Of a DNA stretch of 44,887 nucleotides, positions 6,324 to 12,343 are shown in pieces. This DNA comes from Bacteroidales bacterium (GTDB taxonomy: Bacteria; Bacteroidota; Bacteroidia; Bacteroidales; F082). The stretch is taken from contig JAFTXI010000001.1 in assembly GCA_017461665.1 (NCBI GenBank), positions 1 through 44,887 on the forward strand, written 5' to 3'. A program made the translations under genes and the position numbers. The notes beneath the pieces are model-generated. The model did no database searches and had not been told where the DNA came from. It worked only from the letters and a program-made list of their open reading frames with translations. Position 1 is the stretch's first letter. The number at the start of each line of letters is the position of its first letter.

Positions 6324-7604
6324 TTATTTTATTGCACGTACTTCCGAATTGTCGCCTTTTTCAATAATGCTGTCGAGTGTCACTTCAACGAAAGTATTTT
6401 TTTCTAAATCTTTTCCTTTTAATCGCAATGGAATATAATTTTCTCCGTAACCTCGTGCTATTCCATCGGAACCGATTCTCTCAATGAGCATTTTTTGTTT
6501 CCTGCCAAGCATCTGCACGAAATAATTCTTCTTGTTTTCTGAAGAAATCTGCCTGATGATGGCACTGCGTTCTGTTTTTATTTTATCTGGAATTTGGTTT
6601 GGCATAGTCGCTGCCTTGGTTCCATTTCTGATAGAATATTTGAAAGTGTGAATGTGACTGAATCCTATCGCTCTGCACATCTCTGCACTTTCTAAAAAGT
6701 CTTCTTCTGTCTCGCCCGGGAATCCTACAATCAAATCGGTGGTGATGTTGAAATCGGGAACTACATATTTTATCTTGTCGCACATCTCTCTGAACTCTTT
6801 CGCCGTATAATGACGTCGCATTGCCTTTAAGGTGTTTTCGGCTCCACTTTGCAGACATATATGCATGTGCGGCGCTAATTTCTCGTTCTCAAAAAGTCGT
6901 AGAAACTTTTCGCTGAAGTTGTCGGGTTCTATCGACGAAATCCTCAGTCTGAAATCGCCTTCTATTTTTAAGATGTTTTCGACTAACTTCTCAAAGCTGA
7001 CGTCTTGATATTGGTAGCGTCCCATGTTAACTCCAGTCAACACAATCTCTTTAAAACCATGATCGACGACTTTTCTTATGTTGTCGTAAATGTCTTTGTC
7101 GCTGCGACTTGTAGCTCTGCCTCTTACCATCGGGATTAGGCAGTAAGAGCAGAAGTTGTTGCATCCGTCGTGAATCTTTATCAGACTTCTTGTATGAAAA
7201 GTGTCGAAGGCTGGCTGATAACTGAAGAGGTCGATGTCTAAACCTTCAGGATCGACGGTTTCTCCTTTGAAATGTTTATCTATTATATTGAAGAGTGCAT
7301 ACTTTCTCTCATTGTCGATGGCATAATCTACGGTCTTGGCTTCCAATAACTCGTTCTTCCTGTGATTTACCATGCAGCCTGTCGCGACAATCAAACTATC
7401 AGGATGTTGACGTCGAATCTGATGTAGAGCTTGTCGGCATTTCTGGTCGCTTTGGTTGGTGACGGTACAAGTGTTCACGACAAAGATGTCGGCATCATCG
7501 CTCATCTCGACAATCTCATAACCAGCCTCTTTGAAACGCGATGCCAAAGCATCGGTCTCGTAAAGATTTACTCTGCAACCTAATGTCTTAAAAGCTATCT
7601 TCAT
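6324..7604 (-). CDS. mtaB: tRNA t6A37 methylthiotransferase
   Basis: A 426-residue radical-SAM enzyme converting t6A37 to ms2t6A37 in ANN-decoding tRNAs. Three domains are seen: UPF0004 (FKTLGCRVNLYETDALASRF, with VVNTCTVTNQSDQKCRQ), radical SAM with CNNFCSYC ligating a 4Fe-4S cluster, and a C-terminal TRAM-like segment (KQKMLIERIGSDGIARGYG). KTLGCRVN and the NTCTVT pattern fit MtaB better than MiaB or RimO. Its ATG overlaps the miaB stop (ATGA, 7601-7604), so translation is probably coupled. The pair places both tRNA position-37 methylthiolation enzymes in one transcript. Confidence 0.95.
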   Translation of the reverse strand: MKIAFKTLGCRVNLYETDALASRFKEAGYEIVEMSDDADIFVVNTCTVTNQSDQKCRQALHQIRRQHPDSLIVATGCMVNHRKNELLEAKTVDYAIDNERKYALFNIIDKHFKGETVDPEGLDIDLFSYQPAFDTFHTRSLIKIHDGCNNFCSYCLIPMVRGRATSRSDKDIYDNIRKVVDHGFKEIVLTGVNMGRYQYQDVSFEKLVENILKIEGDFRLRISSIEPDNFSEKFLRLFENEKLAPHMHICLQSGAENTLKAMRRHYTAKEFREMCDKIKYVVPDFNITTDLIVGFPGETEEDFLESAEMCRAIGFSHIHTFKYSIRNGTKAATMPNQIPDKIKTERSAIIRQISSENKKNYFVQMLGRKQKMLIERIGSDGIARGYGENYIPLRLKGKDLEKNTFVEVTLDSIIEKGDNSEVRAIK

Positions 7605-8998
7605 TCTTCAATAAGATTTCCTTCTATTGATAATGGTGTTGCCGATGTCACTTCAACCTTGACGATTTTGCCGATGAGGTTTCTGTTGTTCGACTTGAAT
7701 CTAATCACAATCTTTCCTTCGGTGTGACCTGTGAGGTAAGCGTTGTTTCTGTCAAAGCCGTTGACCAAGACTTTCAATGTCTTCCCTACGAGGCTTTGAT
7801 TATATACCAACGAATGTTTCATCAGTTCGTCGGTGAGAATATGGTAGCGTCTTTTCTTCGTCTCTTTTGGGACGTCGTCAGCCCAAGTCGATGCTACAGC
7901 ACCCGGACGCACGCTGTATTGCGCGATATATGCCATGTTGTATTTGAATTCTTCCATGGCTTTTCTCGAGTTTTCAAATTCTTCTTCGGTCTCGCCTGTA
8001 AATCCAACGATGATGTCGGTGAATATTGTAGCTTCTGGAAGGAGTCGTCTGATAGTGTGAATGATATGACGATAGTCGTCTAAGGTGTGCTTGCGATTCA
8101 TTCTCTGCAACATGTCGTTGTCGCCAGATTGTATCGGAAGATGAATCTGTTTTCCGAGACATTTATATTGAGAGATGACTTCTATCACTTCGTCGCTCAT
8201 ATCGCGTGGATGAGGTGAGGTGAAATATACCCAAAACTCTTTATCCACGCTATCACCGTATTCTCCTATTCTACGCAACAACTCAGCAAAATTGATCTCT
8301 TCGCCTTTCTTATCAAGACCGTAGGAGTTTACGTTCTGTCCTAATAATGTTATTGATTTATAATCTTTTTGTACCAAGTCTTTCAACTCTTCCAAGATGT
8401 CTTCCGACTTACGCGACACCTCGCGACCTCTTGTATATGGAACAGCGCAATAAGTACAGAACTTATTACATCCATTTTGAATTGGGATATAAGCCTCAAA
8501 CTCAGAGATGTGATCCGGCTCGATGACCCAGAATCTGTCCATATTGGCAGAAGGATTAATTTTGTCTTTCTTGCTGAAAAGAGGAACGAGTGGTTTTTGG
8601 ATATTTATGATTGGATGATTGTCTGTTGTCTGTTGTCTGTTGTCTGTTGTCGGAATAAATATTCCATACTGACGAATCATATCTGGGAGTTCAGGCAGGT
8701 CGTTCATCGTGAACACCAAGTCGAACAGTTTCAGGAAGCGTTCTCTGTCGGCGGGAAGGATACAACCTGACACGAAAGTGATGCAGTTTTTGTGACCTCT
8801 CATTTCGTTCCATTTAATTATTCGGCTATAGACCTTGTCGATACCTTTTTGTCGCACCGAGCACGCGATGATTCCCAACAACGTAGCTTCTTCTTCGTTT
8901 TCTGTCTGTGTAAAACCCATGCCTTGCAACACTGTCCTTACGCGTTCGGTGTCGCTCTGATTCATTTGGCATCCCAATGGAAGCAGGAAGTATTTCAT
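7601..8998 (-). CDS. miaB: tRNA i6A37 methylthiotransferase
   Basis: A 465-residue radical-SAM enzyme making ms2i6A37 in tRNAs that read UNN codons. The UPF0004 domain starts at LLPLGCQMNQSDTERVRTVL. The radical-SAM cluster motif is NGCNKFCTYCAVPYTRGRE, followed by LLGQNVNSYG and QSGDNDMLQRMNRKHT. A TRAM domain (VGKTLKVLVNGFDRNNAYLT) ends the protein. The linker between the first two domains contains TTDNRQQTTDNH, encoded by a TTGTCTG repeat (8619-8653) that also occurs between genes. It forms an operon with mtaB by a 4-nt overlap. A -7 box at 9027-9034 gives a leader of about 25 nt. Confidence 0.95.
   Translation of the reverse strand: MKYFLLPLGCQMNQSDTERVRTVLQGMGFTQTENEEEATLLGIIACSVRQKGIDKVYSRIIKWNEMRGHKNCITFVSGCILPADRERFLKLFDLVFTMNDLPELPDMIRQYGIFIPTTDNRQQTTDNHPIINIQKPLVPLFSKKDKINPSANMDRFWVIEPDHISEFEAYIPIQNGCNKFCTYCAVPYTRGREVSRKSEDILEELKDLVQKDYKSITLLGQNVNSYGLDKKGEEINFAELLRRIGEYGDSVDKEFWVYFTSPHPRDMSDEVIEVISQYKCLGKQIHLPIQSGDNDMLQRMNRKHTLDDYRHIIHTIRRLLPEATIFTDIIVGFTGETEEEFENSRKAMEEFKYNMAYIAQYSVRPGAVASTWADDVPKETKKRRYHILTDELMKHSLVYNQSLVGKTLKVLVNGFDRNNAYLTGHTEGKIVIRFKSNNRNLIGKIVKVEVTSATPLSIEGNLIEE
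8619..8653. repeat. TTGTCTG repeat inside miaB
   Basis: Nearly four perfect copies of a 7-bp TTGTCTG unit on the plus strand, read in frame on the minus strand as Thr/Asp/Asn/Arg/Gln residues. The same unit is found at 9041-9066, 9863-9893 and 12311-12328. Confidence 0.85.
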
Positions 8999-9026
8999 TT
9001 ACTTAATGATTTAAATTTTTAAGGTG

Positions 9027-9059
9027 CAAAGATAATAAAAGTCAACGGACAACAGACAA
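9027..9059 (-). promoter_or_regulatory. Promoter of miaB-mtaB, built on a TTGTCTG repeat
   Basis: A TATCTTTG -7 box at 9027-9034 is preceded by TTGAC and a TTGTCTGTTGTCCG repeat that offers TTG trinucleotides 15 and 22 nt upstream. The 33-nt unit is almost identical (three differences) to the exonuclease promoter at 12311-12343. Confidence 0.6.
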
Positions 9060-9190
9060 CGGACAAGGGATTTTTTTAAAAACTTCAGAACTCCAAAACT
9101 CCAAAACTCCAGAACTTCAAAACTTCAAAACTTCAAAACTCCAAAACTTTTCATTTTAATTATGAACTATGCATTATGAATTATGCATTA
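9041..9190. repeat. Non-coding cluster of three repeat words
   Basis: This miaB upstream region consists of TTGTCTG units (9041-9066), CTTCAAAACTCC units (about 9082-9150) and ATGCATTATGAATT units (about 9157-9190). It runs from the miaB promoter to the terminator of the PUR gene, with almost no unique sequence. Confidence 0.8.
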
Positions 9191-9220
9191 AAAAAAGAGC
9201 TGCCATTTTCTAATAGCAGC
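9190..9220 (-). terminator. Terminator of the PUR-family gene
   Basis: GCTGCCATT (9199-9207) pairs with AATAGCAGC (9212-9220) around TTCT. On the minus strand the stem is followed by CTCTTTTTTT. Confidence 0.85.
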
Positions 9221-9221
9221 C

Positions 9222-9261
9222 CTAATTATAAATTGTTAATTGTAAATTGTCAATTGTTAAT
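9222..9261. repeat. AATTGTTAATTGTAAATTG tract
   Basis: Tandem degenerate copies of AATTGTTAATTGTAAATTG lie immediately after the stop codon of the PUR-family gene and before its terminator stem. Confidence 0.7.
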
Positions 9262-9659: not shown

Positions 9660-9822
9660 AAGAAAAATATTATAGTGTGAACTTTTTTTGAAAATTTTTA
9701 TTGCAAAATCATACACGAACTTGACACGAACTTGGTACGAGGAAGGTACGAAGGAGAGTTGACGAAAAATCTTTAGATTGCGTCATTAGTAACACGTCAT
9801 TTTTTTTAATTTTTGCGCAACT

Positions 9823-10203
9823 ATGAGAATGCTCATCCTTTACATATTATTCGCTTTTTTAGGTCAACAGACAACAGACATCGGACAACAGACTTCGTCC
9901 ACGGTCGCTGAGCCTGTCGAAGCGCCGATTGTTGAAGAATTAGGAATTAGGAGTGAGGAATTAGGAATTGATTCGGTCGCTGAGCCTGTCGAAGCGCCGG
10001 ACGATGTTGTCGTGCCTTCGACAAGCTCAGGTACCTGTACGGACACATTGAATGTGTACTCAATTGAATTTAATGAAGACGCACGTCCGTGCGTCTCTAC
10101 GGGAGATTCTGCGTTGCTTTGCGACTCTGCGAGTTTTTTTTATTTTATATTTAAAAAAATGCTTAGATTTTTGAAATTAAATTATAAACTTTGCAGAACA
10201 TAA
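9823..10203 (+). CDS. Repeat-derived ORF, hypothetical 126-residue protein
   Basis: A hydrophobic N-terminus (MRMLILYILFAFLG) is followed by a chain of translated repeats: GQQTTDIGQQT (TTGTCTG family), STVAEPVEAP (twice, GCTGAGCCTGTCGAAGC family), EELGIRSEELGI (AATTAGG family), VPSTSSG (inverted CTGTCGAAG family) and EDARPCVSTGDS (palindrome family). The final third is low-complexity. A TAATTTTTG at about 9805-9815 resembles a -7 box, so transcription is possible. I recognise no protein family. It may be a decayed exported-protein gene invaded by repeats, or a chance open frame across them. Confidence 0.3.
   Translation: MRMLILYILFAFLGQQTTDIGQQTSSTVAEPVEAPIVEELGIRSEELGIDSVAEPVEAPDDVVVPSTSSGTCTDTLNVYSIEFNEDARPCVSTGDSALLCDSASFFYFIFKKMLRFLKLNYKLCRT
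9863..10128. repeat. Composite cluster of five dispersed repeat families
   Basis: In order: TTGTCTG-type (9863-9893), GGTCGCTGAGCCTGTCGAAG (from 9903), GAATTAGG units (about 9938-9970), a second identical GGTCGCTGAGCCTGTCGAAG copy (from 9975), an inverted CTTCGACAAGCTCAGG (about 10017-10032), the palindrome AGACGCACG/CGTGCGTCT (10077-10096), and GCGTTGCTTTGCGACTCTGC (about 10111-10131). Confidence 0.85.
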
Positions 10204-10223
10204 TAGATAAGTTAAATAAAGGC

Positions 10224-10298
10224 ATGGAGAATAAGAAAAACAACATACAAATCTTAGGTAAGAACAAGTTCATAGAACGTATATCTCGATGGATATAG
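10224..10298 (+). CDS. Possible 24-residue leader ORF or gene remnant
   Basis: An ATG at 10224 opens a short frame, Lys/Asn/Ile-rich, ending RISRWI and stop. AAAGGC lies just before the start. A stem TCTCGAT (10284-10290)/ATCGAGA (10304-10310) overlaps its stop codon, and a second pair of alternative stems lies downstream before the next gene. It could be a leader peptide for the secreted-protein gene, a decayed gene start, or chance. No family is recognised. Confidence 0.2.
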   Translation: MENKKNNIQILGKNKFIERISRWI

Positions 10299-10352
10299 TA
10301 TTTATCGAGAGCTGTTTTTAAAGAAGTAAATCAAACTACAGACGTGGGAAAA

Positions 10353-10392
10353 TGGGTTCTACCCATTGATGTAGGATAATTAAATAGAACCC
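10353..10392 (+). promoter_or_regulatory. Mutually exclusive leader hairpins
   Basis: GGGTTCTA (10354-10361) can pair with TAGAACCC (10385-10392). The same left arm can alternatively close a small TGGGT/ACCCA stem (10353-10357 with 10361-10365). They end 16 nt before the ATG of the secreted-protein gene. Confidence 0.4.
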
Positions 10393-10408
10393 GCCTAAAT
10401 TTATTGTC

Positions 10409-12097
10409 ATGAAAAAAACGCTATTATTTGTGCTTCTTGTATTCGGAGTGGTTCATTTGAGTGCTCAAGGTTTGCAAAACAATCCAGTGGAAAATGTAAT
10501 TTATGATGGAGTTATTATTGATGAAGGATTTATTTCTTCCATACCAGAGATGGAATTAACTCGAGAATCTGCATATAGAATTCTTCCAAATTCGGTCGAT
10601 AATTCAACAAGAATATTCATGCCTCCCATTTTCGACCAACGTAATTCTGGTTCATGTACACAATGTGCCGAAATAGGATATGTATTGACATACGAATTAA
10701 ATAGATATAGAAATTCACCGGCGGAAGTTTTCTGGACTGACATCGTTACTTCTCAACCCGAAGGTTATGTTGTTGATGACAATGGAAACATTCACATTCA
10801 TTCTGCTGAAGCTTTGGCATGGCTTAGTGCTGTAAGTAACGGTATGTATGGTAATGAAGCCACAAATTTTGAAGACGTTACAATTATATTGGAAAACGAC
10901 ATAGACCTTGCTGAAGCGAAGTGGACTCCTATTGCAGGAATCAATAATGACGGTTCGTTTAATGGTAAATTTGATGGTAAAGGACATGTAATCAACCATA
11001 TTGTATTGACAGAAAATCCTTCCTATTACAACTCAACCAAAGGATTCTTCTGTAATTTAGATAATGCCACAATAGAAAATGTAATATTCAGAAATGCCTA
11101 TTATGAAGGTCGAGGAGCGGCAGGAATTCTTGCATATAACGCTGACAATAGTAGTATTAATCAATGTTTCTTTGAATGTGATTTTTTGATCTCAGAGGGT
11201 GAAATGTCTCCTTTAATTTATGAAATACACGAGACTACTATCAGTAACTGCATGCTACATATTCCAAGTTTTCTTGATGAAAACGAAGTCCATTCGAATG
11301 CAATATACAGCTATGGTATCGGTAACGTTCAAGATAATTCTCATATTTATAATTGTGCCATAATAATAGACAAATCACATTTGGCTTGGAATGAAAGTAT
11401 AGGATTTGTTAGGTGGAATGCGACAAACTGTAAAATTGAAAATTGCTACATACATATTAAATCATTAGTTGACTCACCTATTCCAGTTGGTGGAACAATA
11501 TCAAGAAATGGCATAGCAAGTAGTAATTTCGGAACGATAAGAAATTGCTATTTCAACAGAGATATTTACATTGATGGATTCCCTGATGATATTATCCACG
11601 ATTTTGACGATGAAGCTGTCAGTAACAATGACGGTATTGTTGAAAATACCTACTACTATTTCAACGAAAATGATTATTGGCAGTTGAATGAGTCTATAGT
11701 TTATAATGAAAATACAACAGACAATCTTATTGAAGCATTGAACTTAGGTGTTGAACGCCTTAATAATGAAGGTTATTCATGCTTGAATTGGAGTGATACA
11801 GGAATGGACTTCGATAATATGGGACTTCCTGTATTCGAAAACTTTAAAAATATCACAGGCATTGCTGAAAACACAAGTAGCAACATTTCAGTCTTTCCAA
11901 ATCCGGCTCAGGACTTTGTCAAGATTTCTGCTGTCGGTAGTCAGCCTTCGGTGGTTAAGGTTTATAATTGTCTCGGAATGTTGGTTGAAGAAATCGAGAT
12001 GATTTCTGAAGAGATTGAAATCAACGTCTCAGATTACAATCCTGGCGTCTATTTCTTTAACGTCAATGGAGAAACTTTTAGAATAATTAGGAATTAG
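10409..12097 (+). CDS. Chimeric T9SS-secreted beta-helix protein with C1-peptidase-like N-terminus
   Basis: A 562-residue exported protein. A signal peptide occupies residues 1-20 (ends VVHLSAQ). Residues about 50-104 resemble the start of a Bacteroidales C1-family (papain-like) peptidase, with FDQRNSGSCTQCAEIGYVLT covering the active-site Gln/Cys region. The following segment changes abruptly at about residue 106 to WTDIVTSQPEGYVVDDNGN, the usual start of a GLUG/right-handed beta-helix protein. Beta-helix-like repeats (IENVIFRN, INQCFFEC, ISNCMLH, IYNCAII, IENCYIHI, IRNCYFN) follow to about 420. The C-terminus (ISVFPNPAQDFVKIS onward) is a T9SS type A sorting domain. No catalytic His/Asn region is left, so peptidase activity is unlikely. 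The stop codon lies in an AATTAGG repeat. Confidence 0.8.
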   Translation: MKKTLLFVLLVFGVVHLSAQGLQNNPVENVIYDGVIIDEGFISSIPEMELTRESAYRILPNSVDNSTRIFMPPIFDQRNSGSCTQCAEIGYVLTYELNRYRNSPAEVFWTDIVTSQPEGYVVDDNGNIHIHSAEALAWLSAVSNGMYGNEATNFEDVTIILENDIDLAEAKWTPIAGINNDGSFNGKFDGKGHVINHIVLTENPSYYNSTKGFFCNLDNATIENVIFRNAYYEGRGAAGILAYNADNSSINQCFFECDFLISEGEMSPLIYEIHETTISNCMLHIPSFLDENEVHSNAIYSYGIGNVQDNSHIYNCAIIIDKSHLAWNESIGFVRWNATNCKIENCYIHIKSLVDSPIPVGGTISRNGIASSNFGTIRNCYFNRDIYIDGFPDDIIHDFDDEAVSNNDGIVENTYYYFNENDYWQLNESIVYNENTTDNLIEALNLGVERLNNEGYSCLNWSDTGMDFDNMGLPVFENFKNITGIAENTSSNISVFPNPAQDFVKISAVGSQPSVVKVYNCLGMLVEEIEMISEEIEINVSDYNPGVYFFNVNGETFRIIRN

Positions 12098-12117
12098 GAG
12101 TTAGGAATTAGGAATTG
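12093..12117. repeat. AATTAGG tract at the 3' end of the secreted-protein gene
   Basis: Four degenerate GAATTAGG units. The first supplies the last two codons and the TAG stop. The family recurs inside 9938-9970. Confidence 0.75.
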
Positions 12118-12153
12118 GAGGGACGTCACTTCTGTGGCGTCTCTCGTTTTTTT
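12118..12153 (+). terminator. Terminator made from a GACGTCAC..GTGGCGTC palindrome
   Basis: GAGGGACGTCAC (12118-12129) pairs with GTGGCGTCTCTC (12134-12145) over 12 bp with two G-U pairs around TTCT, followed by seven T. The GCGTCTCT arm resembles the dispersed palindrome family. Confidence 0.88.
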
Positions 12154-12157
12154 GGAT

Positions 12158-12222
12158 CTCAAAACTTCAAAACTTCAGAACTCCAAAGCTCATAGACTCG
12201 GAGACTCGGAGACGTGTCAATT
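12158..12222. repeat. CTTCAAAACTCC and GACTCGGA tracts
   Basis: Non-coding. CTCAAAACTTCAAAACTTCA units (12158-12190) are followed by GACTCGGAGACTCGGAGAC units (about 12197-12214). The first family also occurs at 9082-9150 and inside the rRNA methylase gene. Confidence 0.75.
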
Positions 12223-12240
12223 ACATAGTTTATTTCTAAA

Positions 12241-12343
12241 AGGTGTCATTGGCGCGTCTCTACTTATAGACTCATTGACTTGGTGACTCTACAAAAAAAT
12301 CTGTCATTTGTTGTCAGTTGTCTGTTGACTTTTCTTATCTTTG
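12241..12343 (+). promoter_or_regulatory. Promoter module upstream of the exonuclease gene
   Basis: Begins GGTGTCATTGGCGCGTCTCT, contains AATCTGTCATTTGTTG, and ends in TTGTCTGTTGAC and a TATCTTTG -7 box at 12336-12343, 23 nt before the ATG at 12367. A similarly built module of nearly equal length precedes the acyltransferase gene (16744-16844). Confidence 0.6.

Follow-up and report, generated by a model that had tools for sequence, protein, structure and literature searches.

Palindromes that are read in frame within genes are known from intragenic REPs of the GTAG/CGTC type and from Rickettsia palindromic elements (RPEs), clusters of which contribute tens of residues to proteins (43-82 in Thauera and R. 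conorii), according to excerpts of Di Nocera et al. 2013 (PMC3733652). Judged by description from the same excerpts, the locus analyzed here resembles these systems in that short high-copy palindromes are found in frame in genes (PMC3733652). In contrast to both, repeats of unrelated families here fill homologous linkers across a single multigene family, for the most part in the same reading phase; the locus further differs from REPs in that no unpaired GTAG/CGTC tag was seen and no RAYT-type gene was found in the source genome, which is 94% complete. The tandem heptamers of the locus have a counterpart in the TAACTGA heptamers of Beggiatoaceae, Cyanobacteria, and Bacteroidetes, which in the excerpted parts of their description are likewise tandem 7-base units, patchily distributed across phyla (PMC4679880); in both cases the mechanism of spread is not evident. 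Unlike the TAACTGA repeats, those reported here comprise other words of 7 or 8 bases (TTGTCTG, AATTAGG, AATTATG, and more), occur together in one genome, and are in some cases in frame. Among described protein families, BT3442 (NCBIfam NF053779) showed weak similarity to residues 223-653 of one full-length gene product of our family, encoded on contig C34 (E 2e-5), which at 23.5 bits against a cut-off of 940 is not a member. Neither the repeat sequences themselves, nor homologous linkers filled with repeats, nor this gene family turned up in searches of open-licence full texts.

The open reading frame and its repeats

The window, that is, the whole stretch of 44,887 nucleotides that was analyzed, is contig C5 of a draft genome of 2,491,993 bases in 60 contigs, which is 94% complete and by its relatives belongs to Bacteroidales. 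The initial annotation had described an open reading frame (ORF) at 9823-10203 made of dispersed repeats. The ORF on the plus strand, its translation of 126 amino acids, and the positions of the in-frame heptamers, the GCTGAGCCTGTCGAAGC pair, AATTAGG (at 9938, 9945, and 9959), and CTGCG were confirmed (Table 1). The two GCTGAGCCTGTCGAAGC words, starting at 9907 and 9979, are indeed identical and spaced by 72 bp, or 24 codons, but the inverted copy reported with them is an imperfect arm, CTTCGACAAGCTCAG. Similarly, the reported palindrome ACGTCCGT is not palindromic by itself, and it is the longer AGACGCACG-TC-CGTGCGTCT that has this property; this element falls outside the exact GAGACG..CGTCTC matches because its left arm reads AAGACG. 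In the folded strand 9865-10130, the arm pair and the AGACGCACG hairpin form, with a modest excess of stability (z -2.0). No match to the ORF was obtained in Pfam or NCBIfam at E 0.01, nor in Rfam at gathering scores; two matches of the Rfam family AaHKsRNA41 to the cassette, at 19.4 and 17.1 bits against 97, were taken as chance.

Table 1. Coordinates of the locus features, and carriers of the leader-like element
Position	Strand	Feature	Method
8619..8651	-	Perfect TTGTCTG array in frame inside miaB (7601-8998), read as TTDNRQQTTDN	
9695..12307		No homology at the same place in genome G009; holds the ORF, the leader, and a Por-secretion-tail gene	blastn
9823..10203	+	ORF of 126 codons; 5' remnant, probably dead, of a gene with multiple copies	
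9823..9864	+	Signal-like codons MRMLILYILFAFLG, also at 14 further gene starts of the source genome	
9865..9893		CAACAGA/TTGTCTG heptamer array, translated QQTTDIGQQT	TRF
9902..9927		26-bp direct repeat, copy 1, containing GCTGAGCCTGTCGAAGC (9907-9923), translated AEPVEAP	
9937..9969		GAATTAG heptamer array separating the two 26-bp copies	
9974..9999		26-bp direct repeat, copy 2, with GCTGAGCCTGTCGAAGC at 9979-9995	
9974..10184		Stretch matching contig C18 at 198/211 bases; C18 without the gene start	
10016..10030		Imperfect inverted arm CTTCGACAAGCTCAG, translated PSTSS; pairing with 9980-9994 possible	
10077..10096		Palindrome AGACGCACG-TC-CGTGCGTCT, related to the GAGACG..CGTCTC kind	
10109..10133		CTGCG tract (CTGCG at 10109 and 10127), beyond the homology to full-length genes	
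10154..10405	+	Leader-like element (multi-copy) belonging to the next gene: ORF of 22-24 aa and two hairpins	
		Leader copies in the source genome (G000): C9, C19, C30, C34, C36, C43, C47, C60	
		Leader copies in G009: L285, L287, L289, L291, L293, L294	

That the ORF would be the densest repeat site of the window did not hold. Scored as the mean number of matches of the window's 12-mers in a 400 kb genome sample, 21 of 893 overlapping 266-bp intervals, some of which overlap the ORF, equal or exceed it, and the peak begins at 9001 (1.58 versus 0.62). The densest site, 9001-9260, lies between miaB and the next gene and holds arrays of CAACGGA heptamers, AAAACTTC/AAAACTCC octamers, AATTATG, and TAATTGT in series.

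Whether the words exceed chance depends on their length. The short ones, taken singly, are mostly near expectation in the 400 kb sample (seen/expected: TTGTCTG 88/61, AATTAGG 59/62, CTGCG 413/386), and ACGTCCGT was seen 14 times with 5.9 expected; the long forms are far above it. GCTGAGCCTGTCGAAGC has 20 sites in the genome and its reversed control none; CTGAGCCTGTCGAAG has 33 and its control none, and it recurs in 44 of 198 genomes of the order, again with 0 for the control. Exact GAGACG(4-18)CGTCTC matches number 27 in the source genome (control 0), so that, together with CTGAGCCTGTCGAAG, the REP-like trait of short high-copy palindromes is present. This pattern was matched in 123 of 198 genomes of the order, but its reversed control also matches many genomes, with up to 12 sites, and some genomes do not exceed the control; therefore, only high counts carry meaning across the order. 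For TTGTCTGTTGTCTG, with 39 sites, the reversed control (50 sites) is uninformative, being the same tandem array in another phase; the word was found in 6 of 99 genomes including the source genome, which alone represented its genus in that draw. The period-7 and period-8 arrays of the 400 kb sample, which has a coding fraction of 0.89, are mostly located outside ORFs, with six of 27 and nine of 28, respectively, inside.

Repeats are also read in frame in other genes. The product of miaB, the tRNA-modifying enzyme MiaB, has its array in a loop of variable sequence, whose length also differs in the majority of nine compared relatives; MiaB of G009 is of equal length with different residues there. 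This gene carries a heptamer array and not a palindrome. In a gene that appears subtilase-like by eye (L049, contig C58 of the source genome), following a cassette, both palindrome arms are in frame, VPSTSSDTALVTEPVEVTS, adjoining a GAGTCACC-type array. With these palindrome arms and the family linkers described below, the RPE-like trait, in-frame repeats at tolerated sites of conserved genes, is present as well.

A multi-copy gene family with repeat-bearing linkers

A search of the source genome with 9700-10240 returned 59 matches. A count over the loci placed the gene start at 15 positions. Three belong to complete genes (C16, 665 aa; C17, 626 aa; C34, 664 aa), seven remain open to the contig end (C1, C11, C13, both C21 copies, C22, and C27), and four run into early stops (C4, C23, and C56 after 37 codons, C8 after 24); the remaining one is the window copy, well inside its contig. 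A worn remnant of the start was seen at C51. C17 and C27, as well as the contig-end copies of C21 and C22, look like near-duplicates and agree as far as shown, and in a draft genome such as this one, some of the copies may have arisen in assembly. Contigs C1, C11, C13, C21, C22, C27, and C56 end in or near family copies, which leaves the true copy number and arrangement uncertain. All of the 14 other starts except that on C4 are preceded by ATCTTTG, which we take to be the -7 promoter box of Bacteroidota; the window copy has ATTTTTG.

Besides a signal-like start and a linker full of repeats, each complete gene encodes TPR repeats and a membrane helix, with Pfam TPR matches above cut-off for C34 and C17 and just below for C16. 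The family alignment shows a signal-like or lipoprotein-like start, TPRs, a transmembrane stretch, a coiled coil, and a helix-turn-helix-like end, the last three being read from the alignment with no database match. An AlphaFold2 model of one family member had a mean pLDDT of 76.1 and a pTM of 0.49. Its low-confidence segments 18-30, 67-87, and 130-156 are the repeat-bearing linkers; further such segments within 485-533 are not linkers of this kind. Foldseek searches with the model matched TPR folds and nothing beyond. Relatives at E 1e-10 or better were present in 14 of 15 genomes of the genus (the source genome included) versus 1 of 10 others of the order.

Copies in the source genome differ in cassette architecture. 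A single GCTGAGCCTGTCGAAGC arm occurs in C8, C13, and C18, and two arms 72 bp (24 codons) apart in C1, C5, and C56, as well as in C4 and C16, where one arm has a point change or changes. In the aligned two-arm copies, a GAATTAG array lies between the arms; the 72-bp unit with this array is present in C1, C4, C5, and C16 and absent from C8, C13, and C18. In C11, C21, and C34, a different insert precedes a single arm, and the copies at C58 and C46, which adjoin genes, are inverted repeats nested in one another and flanked on each side by CAACAG-type heptamers.

Named genomes, when scanned, yielded 316 stretches encoding relatives; the best 80 of these, assigned to Bacteroidales, Bacteroidia, or Candidatus Limimorpha equi and in many cases from rumen or faeces, were kept. 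Of 85 family ORFs, linker 1 could not be defined in 33 and linker 2 in 26 with the anchors used; the relatives are not independent, the first linkers of L165 and L172, for example, being identical. Past a lipobox-like Cys, many first linkers read PVETRHGTSLP, PVETRFIASP, VPEPVEGPS, or similar, with the underlying DNA GTAGAGACG...CGTCTCTAC or CCTGAGCCTGTCGAAGG, and second linkers carry other repeats, such as those translated RHCGLDPQSP and PPFKGG. Inverted repeats with an arm score of at least 9 were detected in 13 of 52 first and 9 of 59 second linkers versus none of 59 length-matched core stretches, and in 1.1% (first) and 0.7% (second) of codon-shuffled linkers. Under a strict DNA rule, at least one of the two palindrome kinds is present in 31 of the 52 first linkers and neither in 21, several of which look worn.

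The 14-mers recurring in the flanks of other loci amount to 151/3173 (4.8%) in linker 1, 121/4249 (2.8%) in linker 2, and 155/32803 (0.47%) in the core, that is, about ten and six times more in first and second linkers; counted per gene as any flank-shared 14-mer, the contrast is weaker (18/52 and 21/59 linkers versus 11/59 length-matched core stretches). In-gene palindromes proved identical to at least seven and at least four other sites of the same genome in G012, and to at least two in G014. Within linker 1, GAGACG is in phase 0 in all 17 genes having it and CTGAGC in phase 1 at all 21 sites in 15 genes, the reverse form GCTCAG being found in no gene; GTCGAAG is mixed, 14 of its 18 cases being in phase 0 and the other 4 in phase 1. 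In linker 2, CGTCTC occurs in two phases, with 3 and 2 cases. On the core tree, linker type changes 23 times for linker 1 (shuffled mean 24.9, range 19-29) and 26 times for linker 2 (28.3, 25-31), where the type labels are coarse and the changes are not a count of insertions. Linker type is thus nearly independent of the core tree, with little phylogenetic signal.

Origin of the fragment and movement of the repeats

The window copy has the same start, signal-like peptide, and linker as the full-length genes for TPR membrane proteins and tracks these genes to about 10109, from where it continues into a tail in common with C18. It is without the TPR, transmembrane, and C-terminal parts and hence a fragment, not a working member. 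On C18, the cassette sits 3' of the end of another gene, in intergenic DNA. In G009, the closest of 25 genomes searched by neighbour gene, blastn homology ends at 9694 and restarts at 12308, and a different gene and repeats lie in between. In tblastn at E 1e-5, neither the ORF nor the gene at 10409-12097 was matched in nine stretches located at the relatives' neighbour gene; several of these are rearranged and G001 shows the neighbour only, so they are weaker evidence than G009. Of the points that the initial annotation had named as counting against it, the outcome is mixed: these comparisons show no protein conserved at this place, and the words are mostly near chance singly but not in their long forms. 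Nor are substitutions biased toward synonymous ones: differences in the N-terminal codons, nonsynonymous/synonymous, were 9/2, 12/3, and 12/2 in three pairs, near the ratio of sites (178:56), whereas 55 core codons of five paralogues gave 28/100 summed over 10 pairs. Linker changes are without synonymous bias, and the gene core shows it. The initial annotation's view of an exported protein overwritten by repeats comes near the truth for the family, with its signal-like starts and repeat-built linkers.

The start shared at 15 places, the missing domains, the C18 tail, the absence from G009, and the unconstrained linker make a dead fragment the most likely reading, and as far as the sequence tells, what remains here is most probably the front part of a sensor-like gene that had been copied. 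We consider it very probable that the ORF descends from a gene copy encoding a TPR membrane protein with a helix-turn-helix-like end, of which the 5' part is left, that its tail was joined by recombination, and that its in-frame repeats were inherited from the linkers. Recombination between repeat cassettes common to genic and intergenic copies would have joined the gene start to an intergenic tail, and this chimera, made via the shared cassettes, may be what was left as the window copy. No two strains differing in the presence of the joint were found. Its repeats would be in frame because it descends from genes with repeat-built, probably disordered linkers, in which selection on the downstream part of the gene presumably removes frame-breaking changes.

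An ORF encoding a small functional exported protein of its own would also account for the signal-like start and the 126 open codons, and in R. conorii, RPE-1-decorated proteins that carry N-terminal inserts are expressed, as stated in excerpts of PMC3733652. With no synonymous bias, no counterpart at this place in G009 or match in the nine stretches of relatives, no Pfam or NCBIfam match, ATTTTTG in place of the ATCTTTG found before 13 of 14 other starts, and an end that lies within the leader of the next gene, we regard this as very unlikely indeed. The initial annotation had alternatively proposed that repeats preferentially land next to each other. An arrival one by one at this locus, with existing repeats as preferred targets, finds a point in its favour in the 72-bp GAATTAG unit, whose presence in some copies only means that the cassette changed stepwise somewhere. 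But the same two-arm composite at C1 and C56, and with changes at C4 and C16, means that it arrived in the window as a unit; its growth predates the copying and did not take place at the window locus, which makes stepwise landing here very unlikely.

For the palindromes in general, movement by a REP-associated tyrosine transposase, as proposed for GTAG REPs, would fit small high-copy palindromes, some of them coding, as REPs are described in excerpts of PMC3733652, and also the spread of CTGAGCCTGTCGAAG across the order. The transposase domain Y1_Tnp (PF01797) was not found in the source genome, compared with matches in 5 of 14 control genomes; with the source genome 94% complete, this absence is not proof. 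By eye, no unpaired GTAG/CGTC tag was recognized: in the relatives' linkers GTAGAGACG, with its GTAG, lies inside the stem, and the CTGAGCCTGTCGAAG element has none. Such a transposase is, on balance, an unlikely agent.

How repeats come to occupy linkers of intact genes is a wider matter than the truncation favoured above for the window copy. Repeats enter linkers because linkers tolerate them, and this half of the mechanism, tolerance together with selection for frame, is well supported. The palindromes probably entered first as intergenic hairpin elements, like those at C58 and C46 that inverted heptamers flank on either side, and gene conversion or repeated capture may now keep them turning over where they are. 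The mostly fixed phase and orientation combined with changing sequence suggest exchange in place after a few founding insertions, and in linker 1 the mostly fixed phase also fits a single ancient insertion followed by later exchange. This exchange step, conversion between genic and extragenic copies, is what we infer. That the linkers are long-lived exchange sites, at which dispersed palindromes are swapped at the same positions and in a fixed frame, is a possibility we put forward with considerable doubt. If true, paralogous membrane sensors would gain rapidly changing tethers with their folded domains untouched, and repeat turnover would not just be damage but would diversify the linkers in a way that is tolerated or even selected for. 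The more than 50 homologous linkers of this one protein family form a natural series for studying the movement of small palindromes and heptamer arrays, including whether insertion or conversion brings them into genes and at what point repeat DNA of this sort can serve as protein.

A leader-like element downstream

The last codons of the ORF are provided by the upstream part of a leader-like element. Elements of this type are about 190-250 bp long, with a conserved MENKKNDIQILGKNKFIERISR-like small ORF. Matches in the source genome comprise 9 strong ones and 12 rows in all, and 13 rows were obtained in G009; none was found in the other 23 genomes searched, and Rfam had no match to the leader in the window. 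In 10 of 11 aligned copies, that on C60 being ambiguous, the element precedes an ORF that by eye has a signal-like or lipoprotein-like start. It is a possible regulatory leader. Among the G009 copies, one has a GTG start and another a one-base gap in the small ORF; thus, the leader RNA may matter more than the peptide.
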